From a virus, in IMG/VR virus record IMGVR_UViG_3300047509_000193, positions 1 through 58,259 of that record: a stretch of DNA of 58,259 bases. One strand, written 5' to 3'. Both the position numbers and the translations under genes were made by a program. Below, one piece after another: positions 32,848 to 52,761 of this stretch; the first letter of the stretch is position 1, and each line of letters opens with the position of its first letter. A model generated the notes under the pieces. That model saw only the letters and a program-made list of their open reading frames with translations. It was not told the DNA's origin and ran no database searches.

Positions 32848-33021
32848 TTACAGAAAATCTTCAGGAGTTAGCTCATTTTCGTGCATTTTTGCTGTGAAAT
32901 TAGCCTGCTCTCGTGCCCTTTTCGCATTTTTCTTGCATTTCACAGAGCAGTATTGCCTAGTTTCACGAGTCATTTCGTAAATTGCGCCGCAGCGAGCACA
33001 AGTATTGGTACTTTTTGGCAT
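32848..33021 (-). CDS. small zinc-ribbon protein with ELTPEDFL tail, 57 aa
   Basis: A 57-residue protein with CARC and CSVKC pairs (residues 8-29), fitting one zinc-bound ribbon, then a basic helix. It ends ENELTPEDFL, a version of the tail carried by several early proteins. ATG 33021, TAA 32848. Codon use and the tail support a real gene. It lies upstream of the terminase gene and may regulate or bind nucleic acid. Confidence 0.6.
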   Translation of the reverse strand: MPKSTNTCARCGAIYEMTRETRQYCSVKCKKNAKRAREQANFTAKMHENELTPEDFL

Positions 33022-33241
33022 CTGGCTATTGCGTACGGCCTCCTCTCCATCTTTATTCTACTCTTTCCAATGCCCAGCAACAGGACTGTTAAGAAACCAG
33101 CTATAAGAAAACGTAAAAAAGTGATAACCGTGTTTGGTGGTCCTGCAAAGCATTCTAAGCAAGATCCCTGGACCACATACCCCGCCACCCCTGGGGTGGC
33201 CTAAGCGAGGGAGGGAGGGTGACACTTGTCACCCTCCTGCA
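33022..33241. other. 220-base intergenic stretch with two palindromes
   Basis: Weak open frames exist on both strands, but neither has a good ribosome site. The stretch contains GCCACCCC-T-GGGGTGGC (33184-33200) and the hairpin at 33214-33237. Otherwise nothing supported. Confidence 0.4.
33214..33237 (-). terminator. hairpin after gene 33242-33487
   Basis: GGAGGGTGACA-CT-TGTCACCCTCC is a near-perfect palindrome (11-bp arms) 4 bases past the stop of the minus-strand gene. No T-run follows, so it could be a terminator, a processing site or an operator. Confidence 0.5.
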
Positions 33242-33487
33242 TTACACCTTAAGTATCTGCTTGATGGCAATAATCTGCGCTTGTGTCACCTTGAGCGTTT
33301 GCCCGTTAATGACCAGTTCATTGGTCAAGGCGCATTCTGGATGCGCGCGTAAGTACGCCTCCATTATCATTACTTTCATGTGATCCACGCAGTACGTGTG
33401 ATCCTCATACGTGAACTGCGCGCCCTTGCCACAGCCTTGACCTTTGCGGTCTACGCCGTGGCATGGAACCTGGGATTTGTATTGCAT
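33242..33487 (-). CDS. small Cys/His protein, 81 aa
   Basis: Starts MQYKSQVPCHGVDRKGQGCGKGAQF with Cys and His spaced as a possible metal site (C-H...C-G...C-V-D-H), then a helical and beta C-terminus. ATG 33487 is chosen because AAGG sits upstream; longer frames start inside the control region. First gene of the leftward arm. Function unknown. Confidence 0.55.
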   Translation of the reverse strand: MQYKSQVPCHGVDRKGQGCGKGAQFTYEDHTYCVDHMKVMIMEAYLRAHPECALTNELVINGQTLKVTQAQIIAIKQILKV

Positions 33488-33566
33488 CGCTTTGCCTTTC
33501 GTTGTCATGCCATGCCATAAGGTCATGCCAGCCTGTCACTGTCAATGGCTGAGTGGGCTTAGCGCG

Positions 33567-33582
33567 ATCACGAAACCGTGAT
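33567..33582. promoter_or_regulatory. operator-like palindrome ATCACG-AAAC-CGTGAT
   Basis: Perfect 6-bp arms separated by 4 bases, in the middle of the control region. The spacing fits a dimeric regulator. It lies 20-40 bases upstream of a consensus TTGACA on the minus strand (33545-33540) and about 220 bases before the early promoter. The regulator is not known. Confidence 0.5.
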
Positions 33583-33775
33583 TGAAAGGCCCGTTGGCCC
33601 GCCGACGACGGCCCCGATCGGACGGCCCGGCAATGCCCGCCACGGCCCGCTACAACGTGGGGACGGGCCGGCCCGTCTACCGGGACACCCAACAATCACG
33701 CGCGTCTACGGCCCGCCAATGGCATTGTGCGATGCACAAAAAGCACACCCAGCCTTGTCATTCTGTACCCTTAAA

Positions 33776-33801
33776 GAAAAATGCATGGCTTTGCATTTTT
33801 C
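33776..33801. other. hairpin just upstream of the early promoter
   Basis: GAAAAATGCA (33776-33785) pairs with TGCATTTTTC (33792-33801) over a 6-base loop. As a minus-strand transcript it would end in T-rich sequence. It insulates or regulates the promoter that begins 4 bases later. Confidence 0.45.
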
Positions 33802-33804
33802 CTA

Positions 33805-33833
33805 TTGACCTTTAGGCAAAGCCCGATTAGGTT
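33805..33833 (+). promoter_or_regulatory. likely early promoter (TTGACC-N17-TAGGTT)
   Basis: The -35 TTGACC (33805-33810) and the -10-like TAGGTT (33828-33833) are 17 bases apart. The first early gene begins at 33996. The -10 is a modest match, so confidence is moderate. Confidence 0.45.
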
Positions 33834-33995
33834 ATGTCTATCGAAACGACGGAAAGGCCTTTCATGTTGAAACGCAAAGCGGACTAAGCCTACCACCCTG
33901 CGCGGGGCGAGACAAAATACGCGCAATGCACGAGGCTCGACTAAGGCAAAGACGACAGGTAAACACGATCCCTGTTGCAAACGAAAGACAATGAC

Positions 33996-34544
33996 ATGAC
34001 ACAAGTTCAAATTGATATCCCTCATGGAATGCAGGCAATCTTGGTTCCTGCTGACTTGGTTCTCAAAGGCCACGGCTATGAGGCCGAGGCCGCTTCTTTG
34101 CTTCCCACAACTGCGGCCTATCTGTTGCAAAACGGGTGGACGCAGGCTCACGGCGATGCCAAGGCAGTGACTGCCAAGGATACCGAAGGGATGTCCGAGG
34201 ACGAGGTTAAGGCCCTGAAAGCCGAGCGGCTTGCCGCAAAGCACGACGCGATCATGGCCGGAACGGTCGGAACCCGCAACGGCGGACCTCGCCTTGTCGG
34301 CATTGACAAGATGATCCAGATCGTTGCGATGGAGGAAGTTGTCGCCTGGGCCGCGTCCAAGGGCAAGAAGCTGCCCACCGGCAAGGGCGCGGCGGAGAAG
34401 CTGCGCGCATCGGTCGAGTCCTACATGGCGAATGCCACGAGGGCCGAAAAGGTCCGGGCCAAGGCGCAGGAGCGCATTGACAGCCAGAAGCAGGCGGTCG
34501 AGGCTCTCGGCGAGGACGACTTCGACTTCGAGACTGCGGCGTAA
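33996..34544 (+). CDS. first early protein, 182 aa
   Basis: The first gene of the rightward arm, flanked by a promoter and a strong hairpin. Residues 100-125 contain an R-N-G-G-P-R-L-V-G-I-D segment seen in other phage early proteins, and the C-terminal half is helical and charged. It ends in an acidic EDDFDFETAA tail. No family recognised. A DNA-binding or single-strand-related role is possible. ATG 33996 is preferred over 33975 because of GAAAG upstream. Confidence 0.5.
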   Translation: MTQVQIDIPHGMQAILVPADLVLKGHGYEAEAASLLPTTAAYLLQNGWTQAHGDAKAVTAKDTEGMSEDEVKALKAERLAAKHDAIMAGTVGTRNGGPRLVGIDKMIQIVAMEEVVAWAASKGKKLPTGKGAAEKLRASVESYMANATRAEKVRAKAQERIDSQKQAVEALGEDDFDFETAA

Positions 34545-34553
34545 TTTGTCATT

Positions 34554-34578
34554 GGGGGAGCAACGTTGCTCCCCCTTT
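34554..34578 (+). terminator. palindromic terminator/attenuator
   Basis: GGGGGAGCAAC followed directly by its reverse complement (11-bp arms, 34554-34575), then TTT. It lies 10 bases past the first early gene and 26 bases before the next, so it may lower read-through into the rest of the arm. Confidence 0.65.
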
Positions 34579-34603
34579 CCTCCTTGTGTAAGGAAACAAA
34601 CCA

Positions 34604-34855
34604 ATGGCAAAGCAAACGTTGCACGATCGCTTTTTGGCTGCACTTTTGGCCAAAGGCATGAAGCTTGACCCAAAGGCAAGGTCGAGCAAATACACGGTTC
34701 TTACCGTACCAGGCAAAGTCGGCAATTTCTATCTTGGCAGTGGCGGCGCGTTACGGCTTGGGCCATCCATTGCTGCCAGTCACAAGGTCAGTGACAAGAT
34801 CAGGGCCGAGCTACTGGCTTTCAACCCTGAGCTATCGCCAAGTGACTTCGCATGA
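34604..34855 (+). CDS. hypothetical protein with ELSPSDFA tail, 83 aa
   Basis: A basic, alpha/beta small protein. It ends NPELSPSDFA, one member of the shared C-terminal tail set. Preceded by GTAAGGAAAC. Overlaps the next tiny gene by ATGA. Function unknown. Confidence 0.6.
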   Translation: MAKQTLHDRFLAALLAKGMKLDPKARSSKYTVLTVPGKVGNFYLGSGGALRLGPSIAASHKVSDKIRAELLAFNPELSPSDFA

Positions 34856-34914
34856 TCCACTTCCTTTGGCTGTGGTTCTGCTTCACCTTTGCACTTTACA
34901 TCATCCAGCGATAA
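34852..34914 (+). CDS. tiny membrane peptide, 20 aa
   Basis: MIHFLWLWFCFTFALYIIQR: a single hydrophobic helix with Arg at the end. ATG overlaps the upstream TGA (ATGA), and a terminator follows directly. Coupled translation suggests it is made. Role unknown. Confidence 0.45.
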   Translation: MIHFLWLWFCFTFALYIIQR

Positions 34915-34915
34915 C

Positions 34916-34945
34916 GAGGCGCCCTTCGGGGCGCCTCCATTCCTT
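34916..34945 (+). terminator. intrinsic terminator (9-bp stem, TTCG loop)
   Basis: GAGGCGCCC-TTCG-GGGCGCCTC (34916-34937) is a perfect stem with the stable UUCG-type loop, followed by a T-rich stretch. It ends the first early transcription unit. Confidence 0.8.
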
Positions 34946-34995
34946 TCGTTTGCCCATAACATCCCCCAGCCGGCCGCTTCGCGGCCGTAGCGACG

Positions 34996-35168
34996 TAGGG
35001 TAGTGTGCCCTGAGCATAGGGTAGGCCCGAGGTAGGGTAGGTAGGGTCAATCTGCCCCAAATCAAGGAACAAAACGTGAACACGGGGGCGCAGGTGAGGT
35101 CATTGACGTGCCTGCGGGGGGCCAAGGTAGGGTCCATAGGGCTGCTATAGGGTAGGGCAGCATAGGGT
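34996..35168 (+). repeat. seven TAGGGT iterons in one orientation
   Basis: Exact TAGGGT at 34996, 35017, 35033, 35042, 35128, 35148 and 35163, all same strand. Variant TAGGGC occurs at 35137 and 35153. Several overlap as TAGGGTAGG. No such cluster was noticed elsewhere. Likely binding sites for an initiator or regulator. Confidence 0.7.
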
Positions 35169-35377
35169 GCTTATATACCCAATAGCCCACCTTTCGTTAG
35201 TCAAACAGTGCCACCCAGCCCCATATACGCCCCCACATGCTATCTCCAGCCACAACTCCGAGCACAATTCCCATCATATCTCACCACATTATCCACCCCC
35301 CACCCTTCTCTCCACAACCCACCCAGCCCCACCGACCCACCCTACGGCCCCCCAGGGTGGGGGTGGGCTGGTCTTTC

Positions 35378-35396
35378 TTTTTTTTTTTTTTTTTTT
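35378..35396 (+). other. 19-base T tract
   Basis: A homopolymer of 19 T flanked by CTTTC and AATAAAA. It could be a low-stability melting site or a terminator for plus transcription. Its exact length may be a sequencing estimate. Confidence 0.6.
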
Positions 35397-35404
35397 AATA
35401 AAAA

Positions 35405-35502
35405 CCTGGGTAGAGGCCCACCCAGGGTAGGGGATGGCCACCACCCCGACGACCCACCATAGGGAATATCCCCCCTAGAGAGAAGGGTGGGGGGTGGCCA
35501 TC
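35405..35502. repeat. two inverted repeats downstream of the T tract
   Basis: CCTGGGT (35405-35411) with ACCCAGG (35420-35426), and GATGGCCACC (35433-35442) with GGTGGCCATC (35493-35502). The second encloses GGGAATATCCC. They complete the putative origin structure. Confidence 0.5.
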
Positions 35503-35583
35503 ACGGTGAGATATGATACACTTTCAACCACCCTACATCATATGCGCGGCACAAATCCGCTTCCTGCAAAGGAAACCCCCTAG

Positions 35584-36084
35584 ATGCCCATCACCCAAGA
35601 GCGCCTCCACAACCTAGTCCTCGAGGCCGAGGCCTTCGAGCAGGCTTTCAACGACCTGCAAGAGCAGGTCCGAAAGACCTTGCAAAGCGCTCAGATGGCC
35701 TTAATTCGTTACAACCGCAGGCCAGCTGAAGTGCTTACCAGCACAATACTTATGTTAGAAGCTGCGGCCACGCAGAGCGCGCCAAACAACGCTAACATAA
35801 GGGTTGAGCGTTACCACTGGACAAAGTTCCACCGTATCAACGATAAGAATAGAGCTAAAATGGCAAGGCGCCGCATTGGCGAGGAGGGGCTAAAGCCCCA
35901 AGAGGCAACAACCGAGTACGTCCCGCCAAGCATCGACGAGATCGAAAAGGCCATAGCCAGGATCGAGGCCGAAGACATGGCAAAGGCAGCCTTGCTCCCA
36001 GAGGCCTTTACACCCCCCGTAGATTGGATGGAAAACACCGTCCCTGATCTGAGTCAACCAGCTACCTTGGAGCCAAAGGAATGA
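35584..36084 (+). CDS. hypothetical helical protein, 166 aa
   Basis: The N-terminal 60 residues are helical (LHNLVLEAEAFEQAFNDLQ), and an Arg/Lys-rich middle (KMARRRIGEEGL) and acidic C-terminus follow. First gene after the putative origin. Ends overlapping the next ATG. No family recognised; nucleic-acid binding is possible from the basic segment. Confidence 0.55.
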   Translation: MPITQERLHNLVLEAEAFEQAFNDLQEQVRKTLQSAQMALIRYNRRPAEVLTSTILMLEAAATQSAPNNANIRVERYHWTKFHRINDKNRAKMARRRIGEEGLKPQEATTEYVPPSIDEIEKAIARIEAEDMAKAALLPEAFTPPVDWMENTVPDLSQPATLEPKE

Positions 36085-36377
36085 GCAACTTCAACGAGAA
36101 CCTCGACTACGTAATCGAGCGCCACGGCCTACAGCAAGACGAAATAGCAGCACTACTTCTGACCTATCTCGCCCGCCGCTTTGCACGGCTCGAGTTCGCC
36201 GCTGATTACATGGCCTATTACCTGCAACAGGTTGCACCAGCTTTCTACGTACCTTACAATGGAAAGATCACAAAGGAGGAATCTGCACGGCAAATCACAG
36301 AGATCAAGCAACTCCGTTTCACACTGGACATGGAACTTCAGCGGCTCAATCCAACATACAGGGCAAAGAAGAAGTAA
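36081..36377 (+). CDS. hypothetical protein, 98 aa
   Basis: Helical with aromatic-rich middle (AADYMAYYLQQVAPAFYVPY) and basic end. Overlaps the preceding gene by ATGA. No recognised motif. Confidence 0.55.
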   Translation: MSNFNENLDYVIERHGLQQDEIAALLLTYLARRFARLEFAADYMAYYLQQVAPAFYVPYNGKITKEESARQITEIKQLRFTLDMELQRLNPTYRAKKK

Positions 36378-36441
36378 GGCTGGCAAGCGGCATGTCCATT
36401 TCGGCCCACATTTTGATAGCGTAACCGGCACACATTGGCTA

Positions 36442-36493
36442 TTTACACCCACGCCACCATAGTCTATCATACCCTATGGCACCACTTGTGCCA
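36442..36493 (+). promoter_or_regulatory. promoter TTTACA-N17-TATCAT with overlapping operator
   Basis: The -35 TTTACA (36442-36447) and -10 TATCAT (36465-36470) are 17 bases apart, each one base from consensus. CCATAG (36457-36462) and CTATGG (36474-36479) form an inverted repeat around the -10, and TGGCAC-CACTT-GTGCCA (36477-36493) follows. A regulated promoter for the genes from 36527 on is likely. Confidence 0.6.
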
Positions 36494-36526
36494 CCCACAA
36501 CGGACCAGCGATAAGGAGTGTCCCCA

Positions 36527-36730
36527 ATGCGCACCGAGTACACCAACGAAGCAGCCAAGCAACATCTTCTCACTGCTTTCAATCTTCTTGCACCAGACGG
36601 CAAAGCACAGAAGGCCATCGTCAAGTGCGTCAAAGAGCTTGAGCACGAGCACACACATCCAGACCGCATACTGACAGAGATTGCTGCAGCTATCCTTGAT
36701 GGCCTGCGCTACGGCAACTGGAGGGGCTAA
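36527..36730 (+). CDS. hypothetical helical protein, 67 aa
   Basis: A 67-residue helical protein with AAGGAG 9 bases before the ATG. Its start MRTEYTNEAAKQHLL and Glu/His-rich middle (KELEHEHTHPD) have no known domain. Confidence 0.55.
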   Translation: MRTEYTNEAAKQHLLTAFNLLAPDGKAQKAIVKCVKELEHEHTHPDRILTEIAAAILDGLRYGNWRG

Positions 36731-36734
36731 GGCA

Positions 36735-37097
36735 ATGTCCCTCACCATCGACCTCGGCCCAGATCACAGCCAACTGCTTGTCGAGCTCCCCGCCGGCCAC
36801 CACGTGACAGTGCCGGCGACTGCCGGCGGCCTTTTGATCTTGCTTAGGCTGCTCAGAGAGCAAAAGCGCGCCGACTTCAACGAGGGGCTGTCACGCCATG
36901 ACGCAGCCTGGCATCGCTTCGGCGCCATTGGCACGGCGCCAAGCCCCACCCAGGCCGAACTCACCCATCAGCTCGATCACTGTGACGCGCAACTGCGCGT
37001 CACCATGCACATCGACTCCTGTCCTTGGTGCCAGGACGCCAAGCGCCAAAGGGCAAGAGCACCGAAGGAAGAACTCTCCCCTGCCGACTTCGACTAG
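36735..37097 (+). CDS. hypothetical protein with CPWC and ELSPADFD tail, 120 aa
   Basis: The first half is beta-like (TIDLGPDHSQLLVELPAG), then helical with a CPWC pair near residue 105. It ends KEELSPADFD, a member of the shared C-terminal tail set. The ATG at 36735 follows GGCA closely. The next gene encodes an SprT-like protease with the same tail. Confidence 0.6.
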   Translation: MSLTIDLGPDHSQLLVELPAGHHVTVPATAGGLLILLRLLREQKRADFNEGLSRHDAAWHRFGAIGTAPSPTQAELTHQLDHCDAQLRVTMHIDSCPWCQDAKRQRARAPKEELSPADFD

Positions 37098-37108
37098 GAT
37101 CTTTCCGC

Positions 37109-37504
37109 ATGACAACCATCCGCAAGTTCTCCGCTGACCTCGGCCAGGACCAAATCCTCGCTAGAGCCCTATCCTACCATCCGACCATAGCCCAGGCACT
37201 GCTTGCCACTCCCTGTGACTGGAGCAGTAAGCTGCACGCAAGCGCCGGCTACGCAAGCTCCCGCCGTGGCATTAGCCTCCACCACGGTCTCCGCGCCGAG
37301 GGGCCGCAGGCCATCATCGACACCTTTCTGCATGAAGTCGCCCACATCATGCAATACCTGGTTTACAGGGAGTTCAATCATGGCGCAACCTGGTGGGAGA
37401 TGATGCATCACCTGGGGGCAAAGCCCGTCCGCACCCACAGCTACAAGTCCGCTGCCTTCAAACGCGGCCCCAAAGAAGAACTTTCCCCCAACGACTTCCT
37501 CTAA
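37109..37504 (+). CDS. SprT-like zinc metalloprotease with ELSPNDFL tail, 131 aa
   Basis: A catalytic HExxH motif (F-L-H75-E-V-A-H79-I-M-Q) and a third likely zinc ligand in H91-G-x-T-W-W-E-M-M. This is the SprT-like family core, whose members cut DNA-bound proteins and other targets. No zinc ribbon follows, so it is a minimal form. The end is KEELSPNDFL. Substrate unknown. Confidence 0.7.
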   Translation: MTTIRKFSADLGQDQILARALSYHPTIAQALLATPCDWSSKLHASAGYASSRRGISLHHGLRAEGPQAIIDTFLHEVAHIMQYLVYREFNHGATWWEMMHHLGAKPVRTHSYKSAAFKRGPKEELSPNDFL

Positions 37505-37541
37505 GCACATTCCCTCCTCTAGCATGACAAAGGACCCTCCA

Positions 37542-37730
37542 ATGGCCAAATACACAATCGTGATCCAGCGCACCCAAACCCACACCTGCGAGATCACCCT
37601 CTCCGCCCTCGACGACGACAAGGCCAACGAGAAGGCGCAGGAGAAGATCGACACCGACGGCTGGGCCGACAAACAGGACTGGACGCTTGAGTCCGATGAC
37701 TTGGAAATCACCGAGGTCAACGAGGACTAG
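37542..37730 (+). CDS. hypothetical acidic protein, 62 aa
   Basis: Beta-type start (MAKYTIVIQRTQTHTCEITL), then a helix, and an acidic end. Its leader GCATGACAAAGGACC-CTCC-AATG recurs almost exactly before the gene at 45346. The ATG at 37524 is a less likely start. Unknown function. Confidence 0.5.
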   Translation: MAKYTIVIQRTQTHTCEITLSALDDDKANEKAQEKIDTDGWADKQDWTLESDDLEITEVNED

Positions 37731-38027: not shown

Positions 38028-38432
38028 ATGAGAACCTCCAGCCCTATAGTCGGCCAACACTTCCGGCCTCCCGCCAAGGCCATCCTAGCCGTTCTAAAGA
38101 ACGGCACCCCCTTGCTTATCTCTCGTGAGCCAGACAACGCCTACGACCCCAACGCCGTCAAGGTCCTGGTCGAGTCCCTCCACATCCCCAGCAGCCAACT
38201 CGACGAGCTCGACACACAGGCCTCTGGCTTCGGCTTCTCCGCCAAGCAGATCCTCGCCGAGCCCATCTGGCACCTCGGCTATATAGCCGCAAAGCCGCCC
38301 AAGGGCCGCCCAGGGGCGCTAGCGCCCGAGGTGTCAAACCGCCTGCTTGAGGGTGAGCCAAAGTCCGTCCTCCTCGGCTTCGACGGGCAGGGCCTCCCCG
38401 AGGTCCAGATAGAGTGGGGCAAAGCCCCATGA
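38028..38432 (+). CDS. HIRAN-domain protein, 134 aa
   Basis: The pattern I-V-G-x-H-F-R-P-P...L-x-R-E-P-D-N-A-Y-D-P-N-A-V-x-V followed later by W-H-L-G-Y-I-A is the HIRAN domain. In the helicase HLTF this domain binds 3' DNA ends. Here it stands alone, so it might recognise DNA ends or forks during phage replication. The end overlaps the next ATG. Function is family-based. Confidence 0.65.
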   Translation: MRTSSPIVGQHFRPPAKAILAVLKNGTPLLISREPDNAYDPNAVKVLVESLHIPSSQLDELDTQASGFGFSAKQILAEPIWHLGYIAAKPPKGRPGALAPEVSNRLLEGEPKSVLLGFDGQGLPEVQIEWGKAP

Positions 38433-41977: not shown

Positions 41978-42204
41978 GCCATGAAGCGATGGCTATTGAT
42001 GCGATCGCCTTAGAGTTTGCGACCAAGGTGCGCTATGGGAGATACACAGCTGAGGGACCTAAAAGAAAAACGTGGAGCGAGTTGAACGACCATGAGCGCG
42101 CCGTGCGCATGGACTGGATGCGCGTCGATATTGAAGTGTATCTGGCGGCAATGAAACAGCGCGAGACGCCGACGGATACGCCCTCCAGGGAGCCCAAAGC
42201 ATGA
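41974..42204 (+). CDS. hypothetical protein, 76 aa
   Basis: Helical small protein with a W-S-E-L-N-D-H-E-R motif in its middle. Overlaps both neighbours by 4 bases. Unknown. Confidence 0.5.
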   Translation: MSHEAMAIDAIALEFATKVRYGRYTAEGPKRKTWSELNDHERAVRMDWMRVDIEVYLAAMKQRETPTDTPSREPKA

Positions 42205-42491
42205 CCAAGTTCTGCAGAGACTGCCTCCATGTTCGCCGATACAGGCTGAGCATAGACCATAGTGCCGACGGAAAGCACTGGGTTTGCCAGGCAACGCAAA
42301 ATGCGTTGCCTGCATTCAACCTCGTTACTGGTGATTCACTGCTTACCTATCCAACCTGTCATGAAGCTAGACAAGATCTTGATGGCTGTGGACCAGAGGC
42401 CCTCTGGTGGCAAGCAAAGCCGAGCCCCGATTGGCCACGGGCGCCAAGCAAAGCACCTGTGGACGAACTCAGCCCCGAGGACTTCGTATGA
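42201..42491 (+). CDS. Cys-rich protein with ELSPEDFV tail, 96 aa
   Basis: Six Cys in 96 residues, including CRDC near the N-terminus and C-H-E-A-R around residue 53, so one metal site is likely. It ends VDELSPEDFV, one of the shared tails. The TGA overlaps the ATG of the YpsA-like gene. Confidence 0.6.
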   Translation: MTKFCRDCLHVRRYRLSIDHSADGKHWVCQATQNALPAFNLVTGDSLLTYPTCHEARQDLDGCGPEALWWQAKPSPDWPRAPSKAPVDELSPEDFV

Positions 42492-43000
42492 CCCTCCATA
42501 AGATCATCTCCGGTGGCCAGACTGGCGCAGACCAAGGCGCCTTGCAAGCAGCCAAAGCTCTCGGCCTTGCCACCGGCGGCTGGGCACCAAAGGGCTTCCG
42601 CACCGAGACCGGACCTTGCCTTGCCCTCGCCTCCTTCGGTGTGCAAGAGCACAGCAATCCGAACTATCCTCCGAGGACCTTCCTCAACGTCCTCGAGAGC
42701 AAGGGTACTTTGCTCTTCGGCAACGCCAAATCGCCAGGCTGTAAACTCACCGCACGCTATTGCACGGACAATTCCAGACCCTATTTCCACGTCCGTTGGC
42801 AATCAGGCGGCGCACCTCCGGATCAACGAGTGCGTGACAATTTCCGCATCTGGCTTCTTGCCTTCTCCATTGACGTACTAAACTGCGCCGGCAACCGTGA
42901 GTCCAAGCAGCCGGGCATCCAAGCCGCTTGTTTCAACTTCCTAATCGACACCCTCGGCCCTCAGGCACCGCCTCACTCCAAGGAGAACATCAATGCATAA
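42488..43000 (+). CDS. YpsA/molybdenum carrier-like SLOG protein, 170 aa
   Basis: Residues 5-18 (KIISGGQTGADQGAL) and A-P-K-G-F-R-T-E-T-G (residues 37-46) are the signature of the cpYpsA-type SLOG family, a Rossmann-like fold that binds nucleotide-derived ligands. Some SLOG proteins act in anti-phage signalling. Here it may sense, bind or break such a ligand. ATG 42488 overlaps the preceding TGA. Confidence 0.6.
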   Translation: MTLHKIISGGQTGADQGALQAAKALGLATGGWAPKGFRTETGPCLALASFGVQEHSNPNYPPRTFLNVLESKGTLLFGNAKSPGCKLTARYCTDNSRPYFHVRWQSGGAPPDQRVRDNFRIWLLAFSIDVLNCAGNRESKQPGIQAACFNFLIDTLGPQAPPHSKENINA

Positions 43001-44513
43001 ACCGACTCCTGAACAAGAAGCCATCATTTGCGCTGCCAAGAACACAAGGCAGTCATTGCTTATTCGTGCCCTCGCCGGCTGTGCCAAATCAACGACCTTA
43101 GAGATGATCGCTCACGCACTTCCACCTGGCCCTGGCCTTGCCTTGGCTTTCAACAAGAAGATAGCCGTGGAACTTGAGAAGCGTTTCCCACCACACTTTC
43201 AAATCAAAACCTTGAACGGCCTTGGCCACGCCGCTTGGGGACGTGCGCTGAGCAAGCGCCTGGTCTTAGATGACAAGAAGCTCGGCAAGATCGTAAGTGA
43301 GGTGCTCAAGGCAAGCGGTTTCCAGGCCTCCCAAGATGATTGGGCGGCGGTCCGCCAACTTGCAAGCTTTGCCATGTCCCAGGGCCTCGTGCCAAAGCCC
43401 TTCACACAAAAGGGTCTGATTCCTGATGATGAGGGTACTTGGCGTGACCTCTGTGAGCAAGCAATAGGTACCTATGACAAGACTCTAGCCGAGTTCGCCC
43501 GCCAAGTCATCGCGGAAAACGTGAAGCAGGGCTTCCAAGGCACCATAAGCTTTGATGACCAAATCTACTTGAGCACCATGTTCGGCGGACAGTACCCTCG
43601 CTTCCCCTTAGTGCTTATCGATGAAGCGCAGGACCTGAGTCCTTTAAACCACCTGCAACTCAAAAAGTGTGCAGCAGACAGAATCATTGCTGTTGGCGAC
43701 GAGAAGCAGGCCATCTATGGTTTCAGAAACGCTGACAGCGACAGCATAAACAAGATCAAAGCGCTGCGCAGTGACTGGATCGAGCTTCCGCTTGCCACTA
43801 CCTTCCGCTGCCCACAGGTCGTCGTCGAGAAATGTCGCGCTCACGCGCCTGGATTTACAGCGTTCCCTACCAATGTTCAGGGCTTCATCCACAGCCTCCT
43901 TCCAAAGCATGAGGACGAGACCTGGAACTGGACCAAGATCGGCGAGCACGCCAATGGTGGCACTACGGCGGTCCTTTGCAGGAACAACGCGCCCCTGCTG
44001 AGCCTTGCCTTCAAGCTCCTCCGCCAGCAGATCGGCGTCACCATGCTCGGCCGCGACATCGGCAAGGGCCTGGTCCTGCTCAGCAAGAAAATCTTGCGCG
44101 ATGATGACCTGCCGAGCGAAGCTTGCTACGCAAAAATCCATTCTTGGGCCGAGTCCGAGGCAGGGCTTGCCCGAGCGCGCGATCAAGAGGAGAAGCTCGA
44201 CGGAATCCGTGACCGAGAGGAATGCCTCATTGCTGTCCTGCAAGGCTCCGAGGCCAAGACAGCCGGAGACTTACGCAGGGTCCTCGCCGATTTGTTCTCC
44301 CGCGACAACGGCAGAGTCACCCTAGCCACCGGCCATCGAGCCAAGGGATTGGAATGGGACCTCGTGGTATACTTGGACAGCTTTCGTTGCCCAAGCAAGT
44401 ATGCACTTAAGTGCGGCGGCAAAGCCTTGGAGCAAGAATGGAACCTCGACTACGTAATCTGCACAAGAACCAAGCACACTTTGCTTTACTGCAACCTGGA
44501 GGACTACCAATGA
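42993..44513 (+). CDS. SF1 (UvrD/Rep-like) DNA helicase, 506 aa
   Basis: Walker A is L-A-G-C-A-K-S-T (residues 27-34), with Cys-Ala in place of the usual Gly. Walker B is LIDEAQDLSP near residue 212. Motif III-like GDEKQAIYGFRNAD and later T-L-A-T-G-H-R-A-K-G-L-E-W-D complete an SF1A helicase. Shorter than UvrD, with reduced accessory domains. Likely unwinds DNA for replication or recombination. Confidence 0.7.
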   Translation: MHKPTPEQEAIICAAKNTRQSLLIRALAGCAKSTTLEMIAHALPPGPGLALAFNKKIAVELEKRFPPHFQIKTLNGLGHAAWGRALSKRLVLDDKKLGKIVSEVLKASGFQASQDDWAAVRQLASFAMSQGLVPKPFTQKGLIPDDEGTWRDLCEQAIGTYDKTLAEFARQVIAENVKQGFQGTISFDDQIYLSTMFGGQYPRFPLVLIDEAQDLSPLNHLQLKKCAADRIIAVGDEKQAIYGFRNADSDSINKIKALRSDWIELPLATTFRCPQVVVEKCRAHAPGFTAFPTNVQGFIHSLLPKHEDETWNWTKIGEHANGGTTAVLCRNNAPLLSLAFKLLRQQIGVTMLGRDIGKGLVLLSKKILRDDDLPSEACYAKIHSWAESEAGLARARDQEEKLDGIRDREECLIAVLQGSEAKTAGDLRRVLADLFSRDNGRVTLATGHRAKGLEWDLVVYLDSFRCPSKYALKCGGKALEQEWNLDYVICTRTKHTLLYCNLEDYQ

Positions 44514-44884
44514 AACGCACACTTACTTGCCTTGCTCTCCTTGCCTCACTTGCTTCCTGCGAGCGAGACGCTCAAGTCGCCTCCCGCAATCTCTCCTACG
44601 CCGCCGATAACTTCCAAATCACTCGTCGAATCGTCTTCTACAATGGCATAACCGGCGAGTATATGCTCACCATCGAGGGCCTATGCTCTCAAGAGCCCAA
44701 GGACAAGAAGCTCGAAGTGACCTGCAAAGTTGGTCCAGAAGCCTTCAAAAAGCACTTCCTCGGTCTCAGCGATAACGTGACCTATTTCTCTGAGCAGATG
44801 GAAGCTGCACCTGCAAACGTCTATCATTACAAGGTGAGCTTCAAACCATCTGTCATTTTGCCAAGCATAGACTTTAGATCATAG
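44510..44884 (+). CDS. beta-sandwich lipoprotein, 124 aa
   Basis: MKRTLTCLALLASLASC has a lipobox (L-A-S-C). The mature protein contains N-L-S-x-x-A-D-N-F-x-I-x-R-R-I-V-F-Y-N-G-I-T-G-E-Y, a pattern shared by phage beta-sandwich lipoproteins. Early expression and membrane location suggest superinfection exclusion, but that is inference. Start ATG 44510 overlaps the helicase stop. Confidence 0.55.
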   Translation: MKRTLTCLALLASLASCERDAQVASRNLSYAADNFQITRRIVFYNGITGEYMLTIEGLCSQEPKDKKLEVTCKVGPEAFKKHFLGLSDNVTYFSEQMEAAPANVYHYKVSFKPSVILPSIDFRS

Positions 44885-45345: not shown

Positions 45346-45789
45346 ATGACCATAACAATCCAGGGAATAGAGTTCGACCTGCCAAGCCGTTACCGTCCCG
45401 GCCACGTCCTCAACGAGGCAGAGGCCAGCGCCCTCAACAGCACCCTAAGCGAAAGGCTGCGCACCAACTTCAGCAAACGGGTCATCGCCGCTAAGGCCAA
45501 TGGCCTCAGCGTCTCCAAGCTCCGCGACGAGTTCGCGGAGTACGCACGGCTCTACGAGTTCACCCTCACGCTTGATCCCTTGGAGGCCCTCGCCCGCAAG
45601 CTGGCCCTCGACGCCATAGCTGCCAAGCTCCGCGCCGATGACCGAGCGTTGCCCGAGGACGAGGCCTGGCGTGAGGCTGCCATATCCGCTGCCTTGCGCC
45701 GCCCCTACTTCAGGGAAGAGGCAGCACGGCGCCTTGCAAGCGCACGGGAAGCAGCCTCTCAGGTCCTTGACATGGACCCCCTGCCATGA
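45346..45789 (+). CDS. hypothetical helical protein, 147 aa
   Basis: Charged and helical throughout (Ala/Arg/Glu-rich), with a basic first half. It shares a leader with the gene at 37542 (GCATGACAAAGGACC(A)CTCCAATG). No domain recognised. Confidence 0.5.
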   Translation: MTITIQGIEFDLPSRYRPGHVLNEAEASALNSTLSERLRTNFSKRVIAAKANGLSVSKLRDEFAEYARLYEFTLTLDPLEALARKLALDAIAAKLRADDRALPEDEAWREAAISAALRRPYFREEAARRLASAREAASQVLDMDPLP

Positions 45790-47238: not shown

Positions 47239-47448
47239 ATGACAGACCAAAGTCCCCTCGCCGAGGCCAACCCACTTTCCCTTGATGAGCTCTTCCGCCT
47301 TGACCCCCTCAAGCTCACCGACGCCGACGTTGACCAGATTATTGCTGAGCTTCGCCGCAAGCGCGCCCTTTGGGCTGCGAGCGAGGCCGCACCTAAGGCT
47401 GCGAAGCGAACGAGCAAGGAAGAACTCAGCCCGGACGACTTCGCATGA
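47239..47448 (+). CDS. hypothetical protein with ELSPDDFA tail, 69 aa
   Basis: Helical, basic middle (ELRRKRALWAA) and a Lys/Ala-rich linker before the tail KEELSPDDFA. The last bases overlap the nuclease ATG. Unknown function. Confidence 0.6.
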   Translation: MTDQSPLAEANPLSLDELFRLDPLKLTDADVDQIIAELRRKRALWAASEAAPKAAKRTSKEELSPDDFA

Positions 47449-48398
47449 GCGCAGCGCTGGCCTTGCAGCCCCTCGCCAATCCGAGCTTCTCCTCTGGCTA
47501 CGCCGGCTTGCAAGTAGCTTGGGACTCGACTAGCCTAGGTGCCCTCAAGAAGTGCCCACGCTTCTACCAACTGAGCATAATAGAAGGCTGGGCACCTCGC
47601 GAAGAGTCCGTGCATCTGCGCTTTGGCCTCCTCTACCACGGCGCCCTTGAGCGCTATCAACATTGGAAAAGCCAAGGCCATCAAGAGGCCTTACGCCTTG
47701 TCGTCCGATGGACCCTGGAACAGACCTGGGACCATGACTTAGGGCGTCCTTGGCTATCGGACAGCCCGAACAAGAATAGGGCCACCTTGCTCCGCACTGT
47801 CGTCTGGTACCTAGACCAGTTCGGCAAATCCGACCCCTTCGAGACTGTAGTCCTGGCCAACGGCAAGCCCGCAGTGGAGCTAAGTTTCCGCTTGGAACTC
47901 AACTACCAAAGCCACTTGACGGGCGAGGCCTTCCAACTCTGTGGCCACTTGGACCGCTTGGTGACTTTCCAGGAGCAAGTCTTCACCGTCGATGCCAAGA
48001 CCACAAAGCACACGCTTGACGACAGATACTTTGCACAGTTTAGCCCAGACAATCAAATGTCCACCTATTCTTTTGGTGGCAAAATCGTCTACGCCCAGCC
48101 GATCCAGGGCATAGTCATCGACGCGGCACAGATTGCCGTTGGGTTTACCCGCTTCGAGCGCAGGATCGTGCCAAGGCAGCAGAGCCAACTCGACGAGTGG
48201 CACAGGGATCTGGGCTTCTGGCTAACCACCGCCCAGATGCATGCCAAAGCAGCTTATTGGCCCCAGAATGACAAGTCCTGCTTCCTCTGCCACTTCAAGT
48301 CCATTTGCGGACGGCCGCCAAGTGGCCGCGAGGCCTGGCTTGCCAAGGACTTCGTACGGCGCCAGTGGAATCCCCTCGCTTCGCGCGGTGACATATGA
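47445..48398 (+). CDS. Cas4/RecB-like PD-(D/E)XK nuclease, 317 aa
   Basis: Cys37 in K-K-C-P-R-F-Y-Q-L, H65, then D170 (GHLDRLV) and D183-x-K185 (VDAKTT) form the PD-(D/E)XK core, with Q-M-S-T-Y after it. C279, C282 and C288 near the end complete a likely four-Cys Fe-S cluster as in Cas4/AddB. Next to Sak4-like and SSB-like genes, so it probably provides 5' end resection in recombination. Confidence 0.7.
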   Translation: MSAALALQPLANPSFSSGYAGLQVAWDSTSLGALKKCPRFYQLSIIEGWAPREESVHLRFGLLYHGALERYQHWKSQGHQEALRLVVRWTLEQTWDHDLGRPWLSDSPNKNRATLLRTVVWYLDQFGKSDPFETVVLANGKPAVELSFRLELNYQSHLTGEAFQLCGHLDRLVTFQEQVFTVDAKTTKHTLDDRYFAQFSPDNQMSTYSFGGKIVYAQPIQGIVIDAAQIAVGFTRFERRIVPRQQSQLDEWHRDLGFWLTTAQMHAKAAYWPQNDKSCFLCHFKSICGRPPSGREAWLAKDFVRRQWNPLASRGDI

Positions 48399-48610
48399 CG
48401 TACCATGTCCCCTCCGAGAAGCAGAAGCTTCAGCGTCGCTACGCAGGCTATCTGCGTGGTGCCCTTGGCTCCGCTGCCATCTTGCGGAACATCAACCATG
48501 CAACAGGCCTCGAGATGCTTCCAATCTTCGACACCACGCGGATCAAAACCAAGCTAAAGGCTTGGTACGAAACTGAGAAGCAAGTGCTTGCAAAGAAAGA
48601 AAAGGCATGA
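48395..48610 (+). CDS. hypothetical protein, 71 aa
   Basis: Basic and helical, Lys-rich C-terminus. Overlaps the nuclease gene by 4 bases. Unknown. Confidence 0.5.
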   Translation: MTYHVPSEKQKLQRRYAGYLRGALGSAAILRNINHATGLEMLPIFDTTRIKTKLKAWYETEKQVLAKKEKA

Positions 48611-48614
48611 CCAG

Positions 48615-49496
48615 ATGAACGACGTACAGCCAATCACCGCCCCTGTCCTTGCCATAGCACCCCCAATCAAAGCCCTCTTCATGGGCGAGAGCGGCTCTGG
48701 CAAGACCTGTGCTCTCGCAAGCCTGCTTGACGCTGGCTACCAAGTCCGTGTCTTAGATCTCGATAACGGCATCGATACGCTCAAGCACTTGCTCACAAGC
48801 GAGAAATCCAAGTACAAGAAGGACTGCCTCAGCCGCCTATCCTACATCACCCTCACCGAGCCTATGCGCTTCGCCCAGGGCCGCATCATCCCGGCCAAAG
48901 CCACAGTCTGGCAAAGCGCCATGACCATGCTCGATAAGTGGAGCAACAGCAAGGCCGAGTTGGGGACAATCTGTGACTTGGGCAGCGCAAGCAAGTGGGG
49001 ACCAGACACTGTCCTTGTCATAGATACCATGAGCACCTTGTCCAACGCGGCCCTAAACTTTCATCTGGCAATGCAAGGCGCCCTCGGCGCAGTCCGCAGC
49101 CAGAACGAGGGAAGGCGTGACATTGGGGTGGCGCAGCAGCTAATCAGGACCTTGTGTCAGTACCTTAGCGATGTAAGCCTCCGTTGCAACGTCCTCGTCA
49201 ACTGCCACATTGTCTACGTCAAGCAGGATGGCAGCGGAGACTTAACGCCGGGCGAAAAGGCACCTACTCAGGGCTTCCCCGCGGCGATAGGGCGAGCCCT
49301 ATCGCCTGAGATACCTAGGTACTTTAACGCCGTCCTGCTCTGCGCAAGCGCCGGAGGACAGCGGAAGGTAATTCATACTATGACCCAGGCGAATATAAAC
49401 CTTAAGACAACAGCACCCCATAGCATAGCCCCTATGTATGAGCAGCCCACAGGCTTAGCAGAGTACTTCCGTGCAGTAAGAGGGCTCTTGCCATGA
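48615..49496 (+). CDS. Sak4-like RecA-fold ATPase (AAA_24), 293 aa
   Basis: Walker A GESGSGKT (residues 24-31), a D-L-D-N-G-I-D-T segment, Walker B-type DTVLVIDT, and a later N-C-H-I-V-Y-V-K-Q strand. This series is typical of phage Sak4/AAA_24 proteins, which help anneal single-stranded DNA. The adjacent Cas4-like nuclease and SSB-like genes support recombination. ATG 48615 has AAAGG upstream. Confidence 0.65.
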   Translation: MNDVQPITAPVLAIAPPIKALFMGESGSGKTCALASLLDAGYQVRVLDLDNGIDTLKHLLTSEKSKYKKDCLSRLSYITLTEPMRFAQGRIIPAKATVWQSAMTMLDKWSNSKAELGTICDLGSASKWGPDTVLVIDTMSTLSNAALNFHLAMQGALGAVRSQNEGRRDIGVAQQLIRTLCQYLSDVSLRCNVLVNCHIVYVKQDGSGDLTPGEKAPTQGFPAAIGRALSPEIPRYFNAVLLCASAGGQRKVIHTMTQANINLKTTAPHSIAPMYEQPTGLAEYFRAVRGLLP

Positions 49497-49651
49497 TCAA
49501 GGCTTTGCCAAGAGATTATACCAAACCTCTGCGGACAATCACCGGGGAGATCACCAAAGAGCGCTTCGCGCGCTTAACACGCCACCTCAAGGTAGGTGGA
49601 AAGCCCCTCGAAAGTATGTTACTCAAGCTGCAAGAGGAGCATGACAGGTGA
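49493..49651 (+). CDS. small basic protein, 52 aa
   Basis: 52 residues, helical and basic (starts MIKALPRDYTKPLRTI). ATG overlaps the previous TGA, and its own TGA overlaps the GTG of the next gene. Unknown. Confidence 0.5.
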   Translation: MIKALPRDYTKPLRTITGEITKERFARLTRHLKVGGKPLESMLLKLQEEHDR

Positions 49652-50244
49652 CAAGCTTTGAAGAACTGATAGAGTCATATCAGCCTGCATCTGCAGGGTC
49701 TTTGACACAAGCACGGCTGCAAGAAGTTGTGCATTGTGATCCAATCACAGGAATGTTTACCAGAAAACTACCGACGCTTCGCCGCAAGGTTGGAGCAATA
49801 GCTGGAAACATAAACAATACTGGCCGATGGGTAGTCCGCGTTGATGAAAAGCTGTATTTAGCTTCCCGTCTTGCTTGGCTTTACATGACAGGGAATTGGC
49901 CAACTTATCAGATCGACCACAAGGATCGGAATCCTGCTAACGATAAGTGGGAGAATTTACGTGAAGCAAACAGTTCACTTAACACCATGAATAGAGGCTT
50001 GCAAAGCAATAACTCTTCTGGCTATCCAGGCGTAAGCAAGTTTAAGGATAAATGGGAGGCATACATTAAGAAAGACGGAAAGAAAAGATTCCTTGGGTAT
50101 TTCACAACAGCTGAAGAGGCAGCGGCTGCACGTGCCATTGCTGCACAATCACTATTTGGTGAGTTCGTTCCCCTTATAACAGATAAACCTCCAGTCCATA
50201 CATATCAAGAAGAGCTTTCTCCTTCTGACTTCTTGCCTGATTAG
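49648..50244 (+). CDS. HNH endonuclease with AP2 domain and ELSPSDF tail, 198 aa
   Basis: HNH core: I-D-H-K-D-R-N-P-A-N-D-K-W-E-N-L-R (residues 91-107), then N-S-S-G-Y-P-G-V and W-E-A-Y-I-K-K-D-G-K-K-R-F-L-G-Y-F, the AP2-type DNA-binding fold. Such proteins are usually mobile homing endonucleases. It starts with GTG overlapping the previous gene. It is more AT-rich than neighbours yet ends QEELSPSDFLPD, the shared tail with two extra residues. This suggests adaptation to the phage. Confidence 0.7.
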   Translation: MTSFEELIESYQPASAGSLTQARLQEVVHCDPITGMFTRKLPTLRRKVGAIAGNINNTGRWVVRVDEKLYLASRLAWLYMTGNWPTYQIDHKDRNPANDKWENLREANSSLNTMNRGLQSNNSSGYPGVSKFKDKWEAYIKKDGKKRFLGYFTTAEEAAAARAIAAQSLFGEFVPLITDKPPVHTYQEELSPSDFLPD

Positions 50245-50282
50245 TTTGGTCATAATCCGTGACCCACAGGAGCACAAATACC

Positions 50283-50714
50283 ATGCCTGATTTCTCACAG
50301 CTACTCTCTAAGCCTCTAGACGAAGTTAAGAGGCCCCAAGCCCTTCCAGCTGGCACGTATTTCGGCTCGGTCAAGAGCTATGAACTCGGTGAATCGTCTG
50401 AAAAGAAAACTCCGTTCGTCCGAGTCCATTTTTCACTCAGCCACGCCGGCGACGACGTGGACCCCACCGAGCTGAACGGCGTTGACCTCCCCAAGCGCCA
50501 GCTCCGTACGGACTATTATTTGACGCCCGATGCCGACTGGAGGCTCAAGGAGTTCCTGGAAAGCTGTCACATTGACTGCAAGGGCAGAACCTTCCAGAGC
50601 ACCCTGCCCGACTGCATCAACTCGCCCGTGATGCTCGACGTTGTACAACGGCTTAATAGCCGCAGCCCGACGGACCCACCTTTCTCGGAAGTGAAGACCG
50701 CAAGAGGCGCTTAA
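50283..50714 (+). CDS. putative ssDNA-binding-like protein, 143 aa
   Basis: Beta-rich, acidic middle (VHFSLSHAGDDVD). Similar proteins sit beside Sak4-like ATPases in other phages, from memory, and may bind single-stranded DNA. ATG 50283 with GGAG upstream. Function is inferred by context. Confidence 0.45.
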   Translation: MPDFSQLLSKPLDEVKRPQALPAGTYFGSVKSYELGESSEKKTPFVRVHFSLSHAGDDVDPTELNGVDLPKRQLRTDYYLTPDADWRLKEFLESCHIDCKGRTFQSTLPDCINSPVMLDVVQRLNSRSPTDPPFSEVKTARGA

Positions 50715-50861
50715 GCATCTTCTGGCGTGCCGGACCCTTGGGACGACCGATTGAGCGTCTCTGGCAGGGTGAGTGTCCAAACCTCGCTCGCGTCGACGAG
50801 GGTCTGGATTAAGTCGAGTCGGCGACACGCCAGCGAAGGCGAAGCCTCAAGGAGAGCTGCC

Positions 50862-52202
50862 ATGCCAGACGAAAGCCACATCAGGGAATTTTGCTACCTT
50901 CCCCTCGATCAGATCACCGTGATTCGCGCCGAGCGGCAGCGGCGCAAGGCCGATCCAGGCGACTTGATCGACTCCATCAAGAGGCTAGGGATTTTGAATC
51001 CCTTGATCCTGCGTCGCGATGGCACCCTTGTGGCTGGTGAGCGCCGCTTTGAGGCCGCCAAAGCCCTTGGACTGGCTCAAGTCCCGGTAAGGTTCTTCGA
51101 AGACCTTGATCCAATCACCGCCAAGATCATCGAGCTGGAGGAGAATCTAAAACGTGCTGATCTCCCCTGGCAAGACCAATGCCGGGCCATAGCAGAGCTA
51201 CATCGCTTGCATGGCGAGAAGACTCCAGGCTGGACGCAGAGCCGAACGGCGAAGTCCATTGGCCTCGAGGACCCGACGGTTACCATGTACTTGAGAGTCT
51301 TCGAAAGCCTCGCCGATCCCTTGGTCGCCCAAGCTACCGGGATGCGTGTCGCATACAACATCCTGACGAGGATCGACGATCGCAAGGCCGGCGACGCCAT
51401 AAGCGAGATTATGGAAGCCGGATCAGACTTTTGGGAGACGGAGCCTACGGCTCCGTCCGCAACGGCAAGCAACCCTTTGGAGCCACCATCGGCCGAACCA
51501 GAGCCCTCTGTCCTGCTTGCCAACTTCCTCGAATGGGCTCCCACCTACAGCGGCCCCAAGTTCAATCTTATCCACTGTGACTTCCCCTACGGCTCTGGCG
51601 CCTTCTCCGGGCCGCAAAGCGGCAAGGACAAATGGGAGGCATACAGTGACTCCCCCCAGCTCTATTGGCAACTCATCGTTTGCTTGGGGCAGAACCTTGA
51701 CAAGGTCATGGCCCACGAGGGCCACTTGGTGTTCTGGTTCTCGATGGAGCATTATACAGAGACACTCAGGGTCTTCGCTAAGGTCGCTCCGAGCCTTGCC
51801 TTCAACATCTTTCCTCTGGTCTGGCTCAAGTCAGACAATGTGGGGGTCCTTCCGGACCCCAGGCGAGGCCCACGGCGCATCTACGAAACGGCCTTTCTCG
51901 CTTCGCGAGAGGACAGGCCCATAATCAGGGCCGTCTCCAACGCCTACGCTGCCCCAACCAACAAGGACCACCACCCAAGCACCAAGCCGGAGCCAGTGCT
52001 CAAGCACTTCTTCGCCATGTTGGTAGACGATCAAACAACCTTGCTTGATCCAACTTGTGGCGCCGGAAGCGCCCTTCGGGCCGCCGAATGCCTCGGCGCG
52101 AAGCGAGTCCTAGGGTTAGAAATAAATGAGGAGTATGCTTCCATTGCGCAGTCAACTCTGCGCAGCGCAAGGACACTCCGCAACTTTGGGAGCAAGGCAT
52201 GA
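50862..52202 (+). CDS. ParB-nuclease-like/DNA methyltransferase fusion, 446 aa
   Basis: Residues 13-110 form a ParB-type domain (G-E60-R-R-F-E-A-A and preceding N-P-L-I-L). After a linker (195-215) a methyltransferase follows, with motif IV as DFPYG (240-244, unusual DFPY form) and motif I as DPTCGAG (396-402). The order IV before I fits beta-class amino methyltransferases. AGGAG lies upstream of ATG 50862. Likely modifies phage DNA. Target unknown. Confidence 0.7.
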   Translation: MPDESHIREFCYLPLDQITVIRAERQRRKADPGDLIDSIKRLGILNPLILRRDGTLVAGERRFEAAKALGLAQVPVRFFEDLDPITAKIIELEENLKRADLPWQDQCRAIAELHRLHGEKTPGWTQSRTAKSIGLEDPTVTMYLRVFESLADPLVAQATGMRVAYNILTRIDDRKAGDAISEIMEAGSDFWETEPTAPSATASNPLEPPSAEPEPSVLLANFLEWAPTYSGPKFNLIHCDFPYGSGAFSGPQSGKDKWEAYSDSPQLYWQLIVCLGQNLDKVMAHEGHLVFWFSMEHYTETLRVFAKVAPSLAFNIFPLVWLKSDNVGVLPDPRRGPRRIYETAFLASREDRPIIRAVSNAYAAPTNKDHHPSTKPEPVLKHFFAMLVDDQTTLLDPTCGAGSALRAAECLGAKRVLGLEINEEYASIAQSTLRSARTLRNFGSKA

Positions 52203-52387
52203 CCACTCCCTTTGCCTTTCCTCTCCCTTGGTCCGTTGTCAACTACGACGGCCGAATCAGCATCATCGACGCCTCCAGCGCCCACGTGACCGAGGTCTAT
52301 CCAGGCCAGCACCTGGGACAGATCCCCAAGACCGAGACCTGTCTCGCCGTCGCCCGTCGCATCGTCAACGCGGTGAACCTGGGATGA
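52199..52387 (+). CDS. hypothetical protein, 62 aa
   Basis: Short alpha/beta protein (FPLPWSVVNYDGRISIIDA... AVARRIVNAVN). Overlaps both neighbours. Common in phages, from memory. Unknown. Confidence 0.5.
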   Translation: MTTPFAFPLPWSVVNYDGRISIIDASSAHVTEVYPGQHLGQIPKTETCLAVARRIVNAVNLG

Positions 52388-52761
52388 GGCGCTCCGGGCA
52401 TAGAACCAAGCAGCAGGCCCGGTTCGAAGACAGCCGGATCAAAGTCCTGCCACATCGCTGCCATGAACTAATCCGTGATCTCTACCGCAAGGCACAGAGG
52501 CTCGAGATCACCTACGGCGATTGGGAGCAGGCCAGCGGGGTGAGCCTTTGCTGCCTGACAGACGCTTGGAGAAGGAACAAAAACCCAAGCCTGCTTAGCT
52601 TCATCGCTGCCGGAGAGGCCCTGGGCTACACCCTGGCTTGGGTACCGACCGAGGCCAAGAGGCTTACGATGGATTTGGAACCTTACCTTGCGGATTCGCC
52701 TGGCCCGAGCCAGGACAACTTCCCCATTGGCGAACTAAGCATAGAGGAGTTCATCAAGTGA
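52384..52761 (+). CDS. HTH-like protein with ELSIEEFIK end, 125 aa
   Basis: Residues about 36-75 (K-A-Q-R-L-E-I-T-Y-G-D-W-E-Q-A-S-G-V-S-L-C-C-L-T-D-A-W-R-R) fit a helix-turn-helix. The end GELSIEEFIK is a divergent version of the shared tail. ATG overlaps the preceding TGA. Confidence 0.55.
   Translation: MRRSGHRTKQQARFEDSRIKVLPHRCHELIRDLYRKAQRLEITYGDWEQASGVSLCCLTDAWRRNKNPSLLSFIAAGEALGYTLAWVPTEAKRLTMDLEPYLADSPGPSQDNFPIGELSIEEFIK

Follow-up and report, generated by a model that had tools for sequence, protein, structure and literature searches.

The DNA analysed here, all 58,259 nucleotides (positions 1 to 58,259) of IMG/VR virus record IMGVR_UViG_3300047509_000193 and hereafter called the window, belongs to a virus of bacteria in which at least seven small proteins, unrelated in other respects, share one short ending. 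Reading the ends of all open reading frames (ORFs) in the window showed that the tail E-L-[ST]-P-x-D-F, with one to three residues behind it, terminates seven products and that an eighth product ends in a divergent form of it. The carriers were the following, with coordinates given as positions in the window.

32848-33021 (-): zinc-ribbon protein of 57 aa, weakly NinG/HNH-like (weak family matches within residues 2-52 at most, the best 5-41), ends ...ENELTPEDFL
34604-34855 (+): 83-aa protein with no function assigned, ORF ends ...NPELSPSDFA
36735-37097 (+): 120-aa protein, ends ...KEELSPADFD; its orthologue in the related contig G001 ends PELSVDDLDLFEEEEA
37109-37504 (+): SprT-like metallopeptidase-domain protein (PF10263, 1.8e-10, residues 36-105 of 131), ends ...KEELSPNDFL; its G001 orthologue ends EELSLDDLEDDTSTTLSE
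42201-42491 (+): 96-aa cysteine-containing protein, ORF ends ...VDELSPEDFV
47239-47448 (+): 69-aa protein, here called SP, with the body SLDELF..DPLkLTDaDvD..I.eLRrkR, immediately upstream of an exonuclease gene, ends ...KEELSPDDFA
49648-50244 (+): HNH-AP2 homing-type endonuclease (HNH_3, 1.1e-11), tail ...QEELSPSDFLPD
52384-52761 (+): 125-aa protein, ORF ends in the divergent tail ...GELSIEEFIK

Non-random tails on unrelated proteins

Given the amino-acid composition of the window, 0.003 such tails would be expected among its 631 ORFs (shuffled ORFs gave the same figure), and the seven observed are far above chance. A search with the corresponding DNA pattern placed them at 32854-32874 (-), 34829-34849, 37071-37091, 37478-37498, 42465-42485, 47422-47442 and 50212-50232. 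The sole further match was an in-frame LTPEDF inside the small-terminase ORF (32645-32665, minus strand), which is probably due to chance. The letters that follow the motif varied (A, L, D, L, V, A, LPD and IK) and none was Phe.

Pfam and PHROGs assigned carriers to SprT-like, HNH_3 and weak zinc-ribbon families and left the remaining carriers without a family, and the carrier bodies fell into separate BLAST clusters. The linker between body and motif was divergent, both among SP orthologues and among non-homologous carriers. In the endonuclease, which has 198 residues, the family match stops at residue 174, and the alignments of the twelve best among 2,624 matching phage records likewise end at residues 174-181, so that the tail lies beyond the known domain and is an addition to a mobile-type gene.

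Comparison of the tails at the nucleotide level showed that 50 of 120 same-residue pairs used the identical codon, as against 50.5 expected for independent draws from phage codon usage, and that the bases flanking the tail DNA disagree between carriers. As codon choice is independent and the flanks differ, it is the peptide that is kept and not a DNA copy, and selection acts on the tail peptide. Independent codon choice likewise rules out a shared 3' nucleic-acid element as the source of the tails. The tails of 42201-42491 and 47239-47448 are similar in their codons (GAACTCAGCCC), as would be expected if tails without any common function had spread by recombination or by the copying of gene ends. 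However, this explanation is largely refuted and in our view barely credible, for besides the codon matches at the independent-draw rate and the differing flanks, SP orthologues conserve the tail in kind with mainly synonymous change and orthologues change tail version together (see below). An original prediction, made from the letters of the window, had already placed the seven tails and ELSIEEFIK at these ORF ends and LTPEDF inside the small terminase, and had held that the upstream parts are unrelated and that selection acts on the peptide; all of this was borne out. It also described the carriers as early, a term for which location and strand are the only basis.

Tail versions in related genomes

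A search with the DNA polymerase PolA identified eight related viral loci and Caulobacter phage Kuura, which together represent the nine nearest relatives, and a search with the exonuclease added 80 further loci and one contig of an Acidobacteria-labelled metagenome-assembled genome. The original prediction had proposed looking for the motif across related phages. A search found ELSPxDF itself in none of the nine nearest relatives, but orthologues of the carriers retained the tail in a local version. Two conditions that would have refuted the original prediction, namely loss of the tail from the carriers' relatives and a tail frequency like that of random ends, thus did not hold. Most relatives carry a private tail that is common to several unrelated ORFs, such as ELSLDDL, SLADLGL, SLSDIGL, VIDVEI, AADESIL or LLAGLE.

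The change of version was concerted in G001 (the contig of L001), whose PolA is 68% identical to that of the window. Its tails were ELDLSDLDD, QLDVADLC, ELNLDDLED, ELSVDDLDL and ELSLDDLED, and its orthologues of 36735-37097, the SprT-like protein and SP all retained the tail in the G001 version. Three unrelated orthologous pairs therefore differ alike between the two genomes, with PxDF in the window and [LV]xDL in G001. Kuura proteins ended in ELNIDDLFSE (AELNIDDLFSE with its preceding residue) and DLSIDDLLSTL, and ADLSIDDLLSTL is also given as a Kuura tail. In G022 (L107, contig 93) three different proteins ended HQLSLADLGL, PISLADLGL and LLSLADLGL; this is the contig that sits in the Acidobacteria-labelled metagenome-assembled genome, possibly as a prophage or a binned virus. 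G013, G014 and G029 each had DIGL on several proteins, and private codes were found on three ORFs each in G017 (IAANEDIL/LAADESIL/IPADESVL) and G008 (VIDVEIPEF/VIEVEIGDI/VIEIEIPEE). The SP tail of G009 was buried by a C-terminal extension, and three other ORFs of that genome had LTL[AK]DLGL. The outgroup Vibrio and Microcystis phages and contig MW202489 had sets of their own, for example VDTDALLAGLE, IDADELLAGLE and SPADLLKGLED (the two long carriers of each outgroup are paralogues and were counted once). Possible distant relatives of 34604-34855 in MW202489 (36080-36382) and L063 (901-1230), for which pairwise matches were weak, ended SPADLLKGLED and LTLADFL, and G012 57791-58045 links them.

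SP was present in about 60 exonuclease loci, nearly always with a tail of this kind and with varying sequence (LSLDDLGL, LNLEDLGF, KSLSDIGL, LSVDELLSGLD, ISADELLKDIDLNF). In 26 genomes the mean similarity to the other ORF tails of a genome was 25.2 for its own SP tail and 21.3 (s.d. 0.53) for the SP tails of other genomes, and 0 of 20,000 permutations reached the observed mean; when internal peptides of these ORFs served as the control, the result was p = 1.6e-6. A prospective test on 31 new loci, in which SP was found by a model built without tails, gave p = 3.5e-6, although some of these loci are near-copies and the independent cases are fewer. Across the exonuclease loci, tail-pattern matches were found on 124 of 4,195 plus-strand ORFs compared to 45 of 4,816 opposite-strand ORFs. 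Codon differences in the SP tails of two close-orthologue groups were mainly synonymous (synonymous to non-synonymous 282:98 and 256:34), unlike those in the linker of the second group (114:162).

Eleven loci (L193, L207, L209, L213, L217, L224, L228, L233, L237, L244 and L245) had SP and other ORFs ending in KRRSW, KRRxIP, KRRF, KRRL or RRR. Nine of them could be placed on the exonuclease tree, where they formed a single fully supported clade nested among acidic-tail genomes. SP proteins of this clade have an older [VI]DLxxLGL-type motif upstream and the basic KRR motif behind it (L213 KVDLAKIGLGKAPQVVKRRTIP; L207 SIDLAALGLSKKAEEPPPAPMKRRSW), and other carriers are likewise bipartite (L237 LLSILGLGRAKPQEPVKRRVIP). 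A flip in the charge of the code was thus ruled out on inspection, the old motif being kept and KRR added. The net charge of core proteins in acidic- and basic-tail genomes showed several slight shifts, which were not discriminating and concerned one clade only.

The residues behind the motif bear on a further explanation, in which the tail is a degradation or adaptor tag through which early proteins become accessible to a protease of the host or the phage. Placement at the C-terminus would suit such a tag, and small early-region proteins are often short-lived. Unlike ssrA-type degrons with their fixed C-terminal residues, however, the tails have an inconstant last residue, and in many relatives further residues stand behind the motif (ELSLDDLEDDTSTTLSE, FSLADIGLEEEEDAA), up to 10 more after some tails. 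As the basic clade also sets a second motif behind the first, and codes private to each lineage would be unexpected if a host protease read them, we regard a degradation tag as most improbable.

Gene neighbourhood and candidate partners for the proposed docking

The carriers lie in and around an operon that encodes an exonuclease, a Sak4-like ATPase and a 151-aa protein, and the following genes of this neighbourhood were considered as partners of the tail.

47445-48398 (+): PD-(D/E)XK exonuclease (PF12705, 1.1e-15), candidate partner without a tail, universal in tail-bearing relatives
48588-49496 (+): Sak4-like ATPase (phrog_124, 3.1e-13), candidate partner without a tail in the window
50259-50714 (+): predicted OB-fold single-stranded DNA-binding protein (SSB) of 151 aa, DUF669/PrgE-like (AlphaFold2 pLDDT 89 and Foldseek), candidate partner
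50727-52202 (+): ParB_N domain fused to an N6/N4 DNA methyltransferase, best mirror-tree correlation with tails, missing from several branches of the family
53239-54345 (+): uracil-DNA glycosylase (UDG) domain and 3'-5' exonuclease half of PolA (domain matches), candidate partner
55319-56860 (+): DNA polymerase A domain (PF00476, 1.1e-28), candidate partner

Searches by sequence gave no PHROG or Pfam match for the 151-aa protein. The best PDB match of its modelled fold was PrgE (4.8e-5), followed by RPA and SSB proteins, and DUF669 phage proteins were matched in BFVD, so that it is probably the phage SSB; it lacks an acidic C-terminal tail. The exonuclease, Sak4, SSB, UDG-exonuclease and PolA were present in every family genome whose contig covers them. 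PolA is split across 53239-56860, where UDG fused to the 3'-5' exonuclease half is followed by inserted genes and the polymerase half, an arrangement kept in relatives. This neighbourhood favours the recombination/replication module (exonuclease, Sak4, SSB, PolA) as the probable home of the partner.

Further genes of the window were noted in the course of this survey. A protein at 44411-44884 matched PHROG 478 (6e-51), annotated as a recombination directionality factor, and has a lipoprotein-like start (LALLASLASCE), and a cpYpsA SLOG-family protein at 42407-43000 (PF12694, 2.7e-33) adjoins a UvrD-like helicase. Helical paralogues at 33975-34544 and 45346-45789 were present in most relatives, and one of them is described as follows.

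45346-45789 (+): conserved helical protein, paralogue of 33975-34544, ends ...QVLDMDPLP in the window; several orthologues end in tails (LDLDELA, ITIGDLSL), and its AlphaFold model had no PDB match

We favour, with moderate confidence, the interpretation that the tail is a C-terminal docking motif on a flexible linker for a common partner, probably in the phage recombination/replication module. The original prediction had likewise proposed recruitment of many small proteins to one partner, and named replisome, protease or portal; recruitment is still the best reading and was much strengthened by the shared tails that relatives have of their own, and among these sites the neighbourhood points to the recombination/replication module. 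A short linear motif would have been added to proteins of unrelated fold and would bring at least seven or eight mostly small, often DNA-related proteins (the SprT-like protease, the HNH endonuclease, zinc ribbons and others) to a partner that is probably a phage-encoded member of the module. Tail and partner pocket would co-evolve, each lineage having its own version and all carriers of a genome changing together. Most versions of the motif follow the order hydrophobic, S/T/D/N, x, x, D/E, hydrophobic, which is the pattern of a helix that begins with a capping box and a hydrophobic staple, and Pro at the third place of the window motif fits helix position N1. The tail may thus be a very short N-capped helix that forms upon binding, and the sequence of the G008 tail suggests a strand-like form instead, so that the tail fold need not be uniform.

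Several results weigh against docking on one partner of this module. Mirror-tree correlations singled out none of the exonuclease, Sak4, SSB and PolA. The highest score was that of the ParB-methyltransferase (partial rho 0.46), which was rejected as a hub because Kuura, G018, L191 and all 11 basic-tail loci bear tails but lack this protein. Sak4 itself bears the basic tail in L193, L213 and L244, which counts against Sak4 as a universal reader. One pocket could hardly accommodate codes that differ as much as VIDVEI and SLADLGL unless it evolves fast or the partner was replaced, and G002, G009, G012, G023 and G025 were without coherence in the automatic test. Binding, the existence of a single partner and the identity of that partner are what we infer.

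Alternatively, the partner may be a host protein such as the sliding clamp, RNA polymerase or an enzyme that binds the SSB C-terminus (SSB-Ct), with tail versions that track the host. Phages often dock on host hubs, and the tails vary among phages that probably do not infect the same hosts (the records include Caulobacter, Vibrio and Microcystis as well as a contig labelled Acidobacteria). However, the pockets with which hosts bind such motifs are conserved from one bacterium to another, and the codes nevertheless differ between relatives as close as the window and G001; the tails also lack the beta-clamp pattern Q-x-x-L-x-F, and the carriers adjoin phage recombination genes. A host partner therefore appears unlikely.

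The tail could also be a cargo-loading peptide that sends its carriers into the procapsid or virion. Encapsulins follow this logic, with short C-terminal peptides that occur on unrelated cargo in shell-specific versions, LTLADL/LSAGDL resembles the GIGSL core of the encapsulin consensus SDGSLGIGSLKRS (PMC8346489), and carrier 32848-33021 lies on the late strand. In contrast, the G-S-L-G-I-G-S-L type core and consensus are not matched by the window tails, the encapsulin pocket involves an N-terminal helix, in place of which phage capsids have the N-arm (PMC8346489), the carriers cluster with replication genes and capsid-protein distances do not track tail distances (partial rho 0.11, p = 0.19). 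Cargo loading is accordingly very unlikely.

Returning to docking within the phage, a more specific form of it can be put forward only tentatively, namely that the tails are address codes private to each lineage. A single phage-encoded hub that evolves fast, and that is neither a sliding clamp nor the SSB-Ct system, would recognise the tag at the C-terminus of many unrelated proteins; a new gene, even one for a homing endonuclease, would join by gaining the tag; the code would be rewritten in concert, and one clade would have added a basic motif. If the tails dock on one partner, they provide a direct way to tell which anonymous small phage genes act at one place, a label of function readable from the genome for genes without a family. 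Concerted rewriting of the tag across unrelated genes would then serve as a natural experiment on how motif and pocket co-evolve, in which orthogonal versions can be compared, and tail gain may explain how accessory genes enter the phage replication machinery.

Comparison with known systems

The tail had originally been likened to the SSB C-terminus, and a general likeness holds, as both are acidic, hydrophobic C-terminal tails on a flexible linker and Sak4 stands beside a DUF669-type SSB here as in phage HK620, where Sak4 is stimulated by the neighbouring DUF669 SSB via the last six residues of that SSB (PMC5928155). The likeness does not extend further, as SSB-Ct ends in DDDIPF-COOH and no window tail ends in Phe, the window carriers are not ssDNA-binding proteins by family (SprT-like, HNH, zinc ribbon or none), and one clade adds basic tails. 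SSB-Ct also has one carrier and many readers, whereas here there are many carriers and the phage SSB has no tail; the tail function may have moved to the many carriers. A separate 85-aa protein of G001 (38051-38308, minus strand) ends in DLDDEIPF, which closely matches the C-terminal tip of bacterial SSB, as though this protein imitated the SSB of the host.

An attractive analogy for a phage OB fold as reader may be RPA70N, whose OB fold recognises acidic, hydrophobic peptides from more than 20 proteins, for example RAD9, HelB, WRN and p53 (PMC10479964). These peptides are often helical and occur on many unrelated proteins with one OB-fold reader. A reader of this type would be an OB fold whose groove is basic and hydrophobic, and the window encodes a predicted OB-fold SSB. 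They differ from the tails in being eukaryotic, about 20 residues long, not confined to the C-terminus and not lineage-private. Bacterial beta-clamp motifs (Q-L-[SD]-L-F or Q-x-x-L-x-[FL]) are unlike the window consensus E-L-[ST]-P-x-D-F, which is without Q.

The closest precedent by analogy is phage T4, in which gp43, gp55 and gp33 have interchangeable hydrophobic, acidic C-termini that dock on the gp45 sliding clamp, with a divergent linker in gp55 (PMC2988020). The claim that no system of this kind had been described was therefore too strong, although T4 and SSB tails were the only named systems of this kind that we found for phages, in literature that mostly did not include subscription journals. 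As in the window, short hydrophobic, acidic C-termini occur on several unrelated proteins of one phage with a divergent linker, and in T4 they share one partner. The T4 partner is the clamp, whereas no clamp family was recognised among the 30 window proteins scanned with Pfam, a subset of its ORFs. Docking by shared C-terminal tails is thus already known from T4, with three carriers in replication and transcription; what is new in this PolA phage is the larger number of carriers (seven or eight), that these are mostly small accessory proteins, and a private version of the tail in each lineage.

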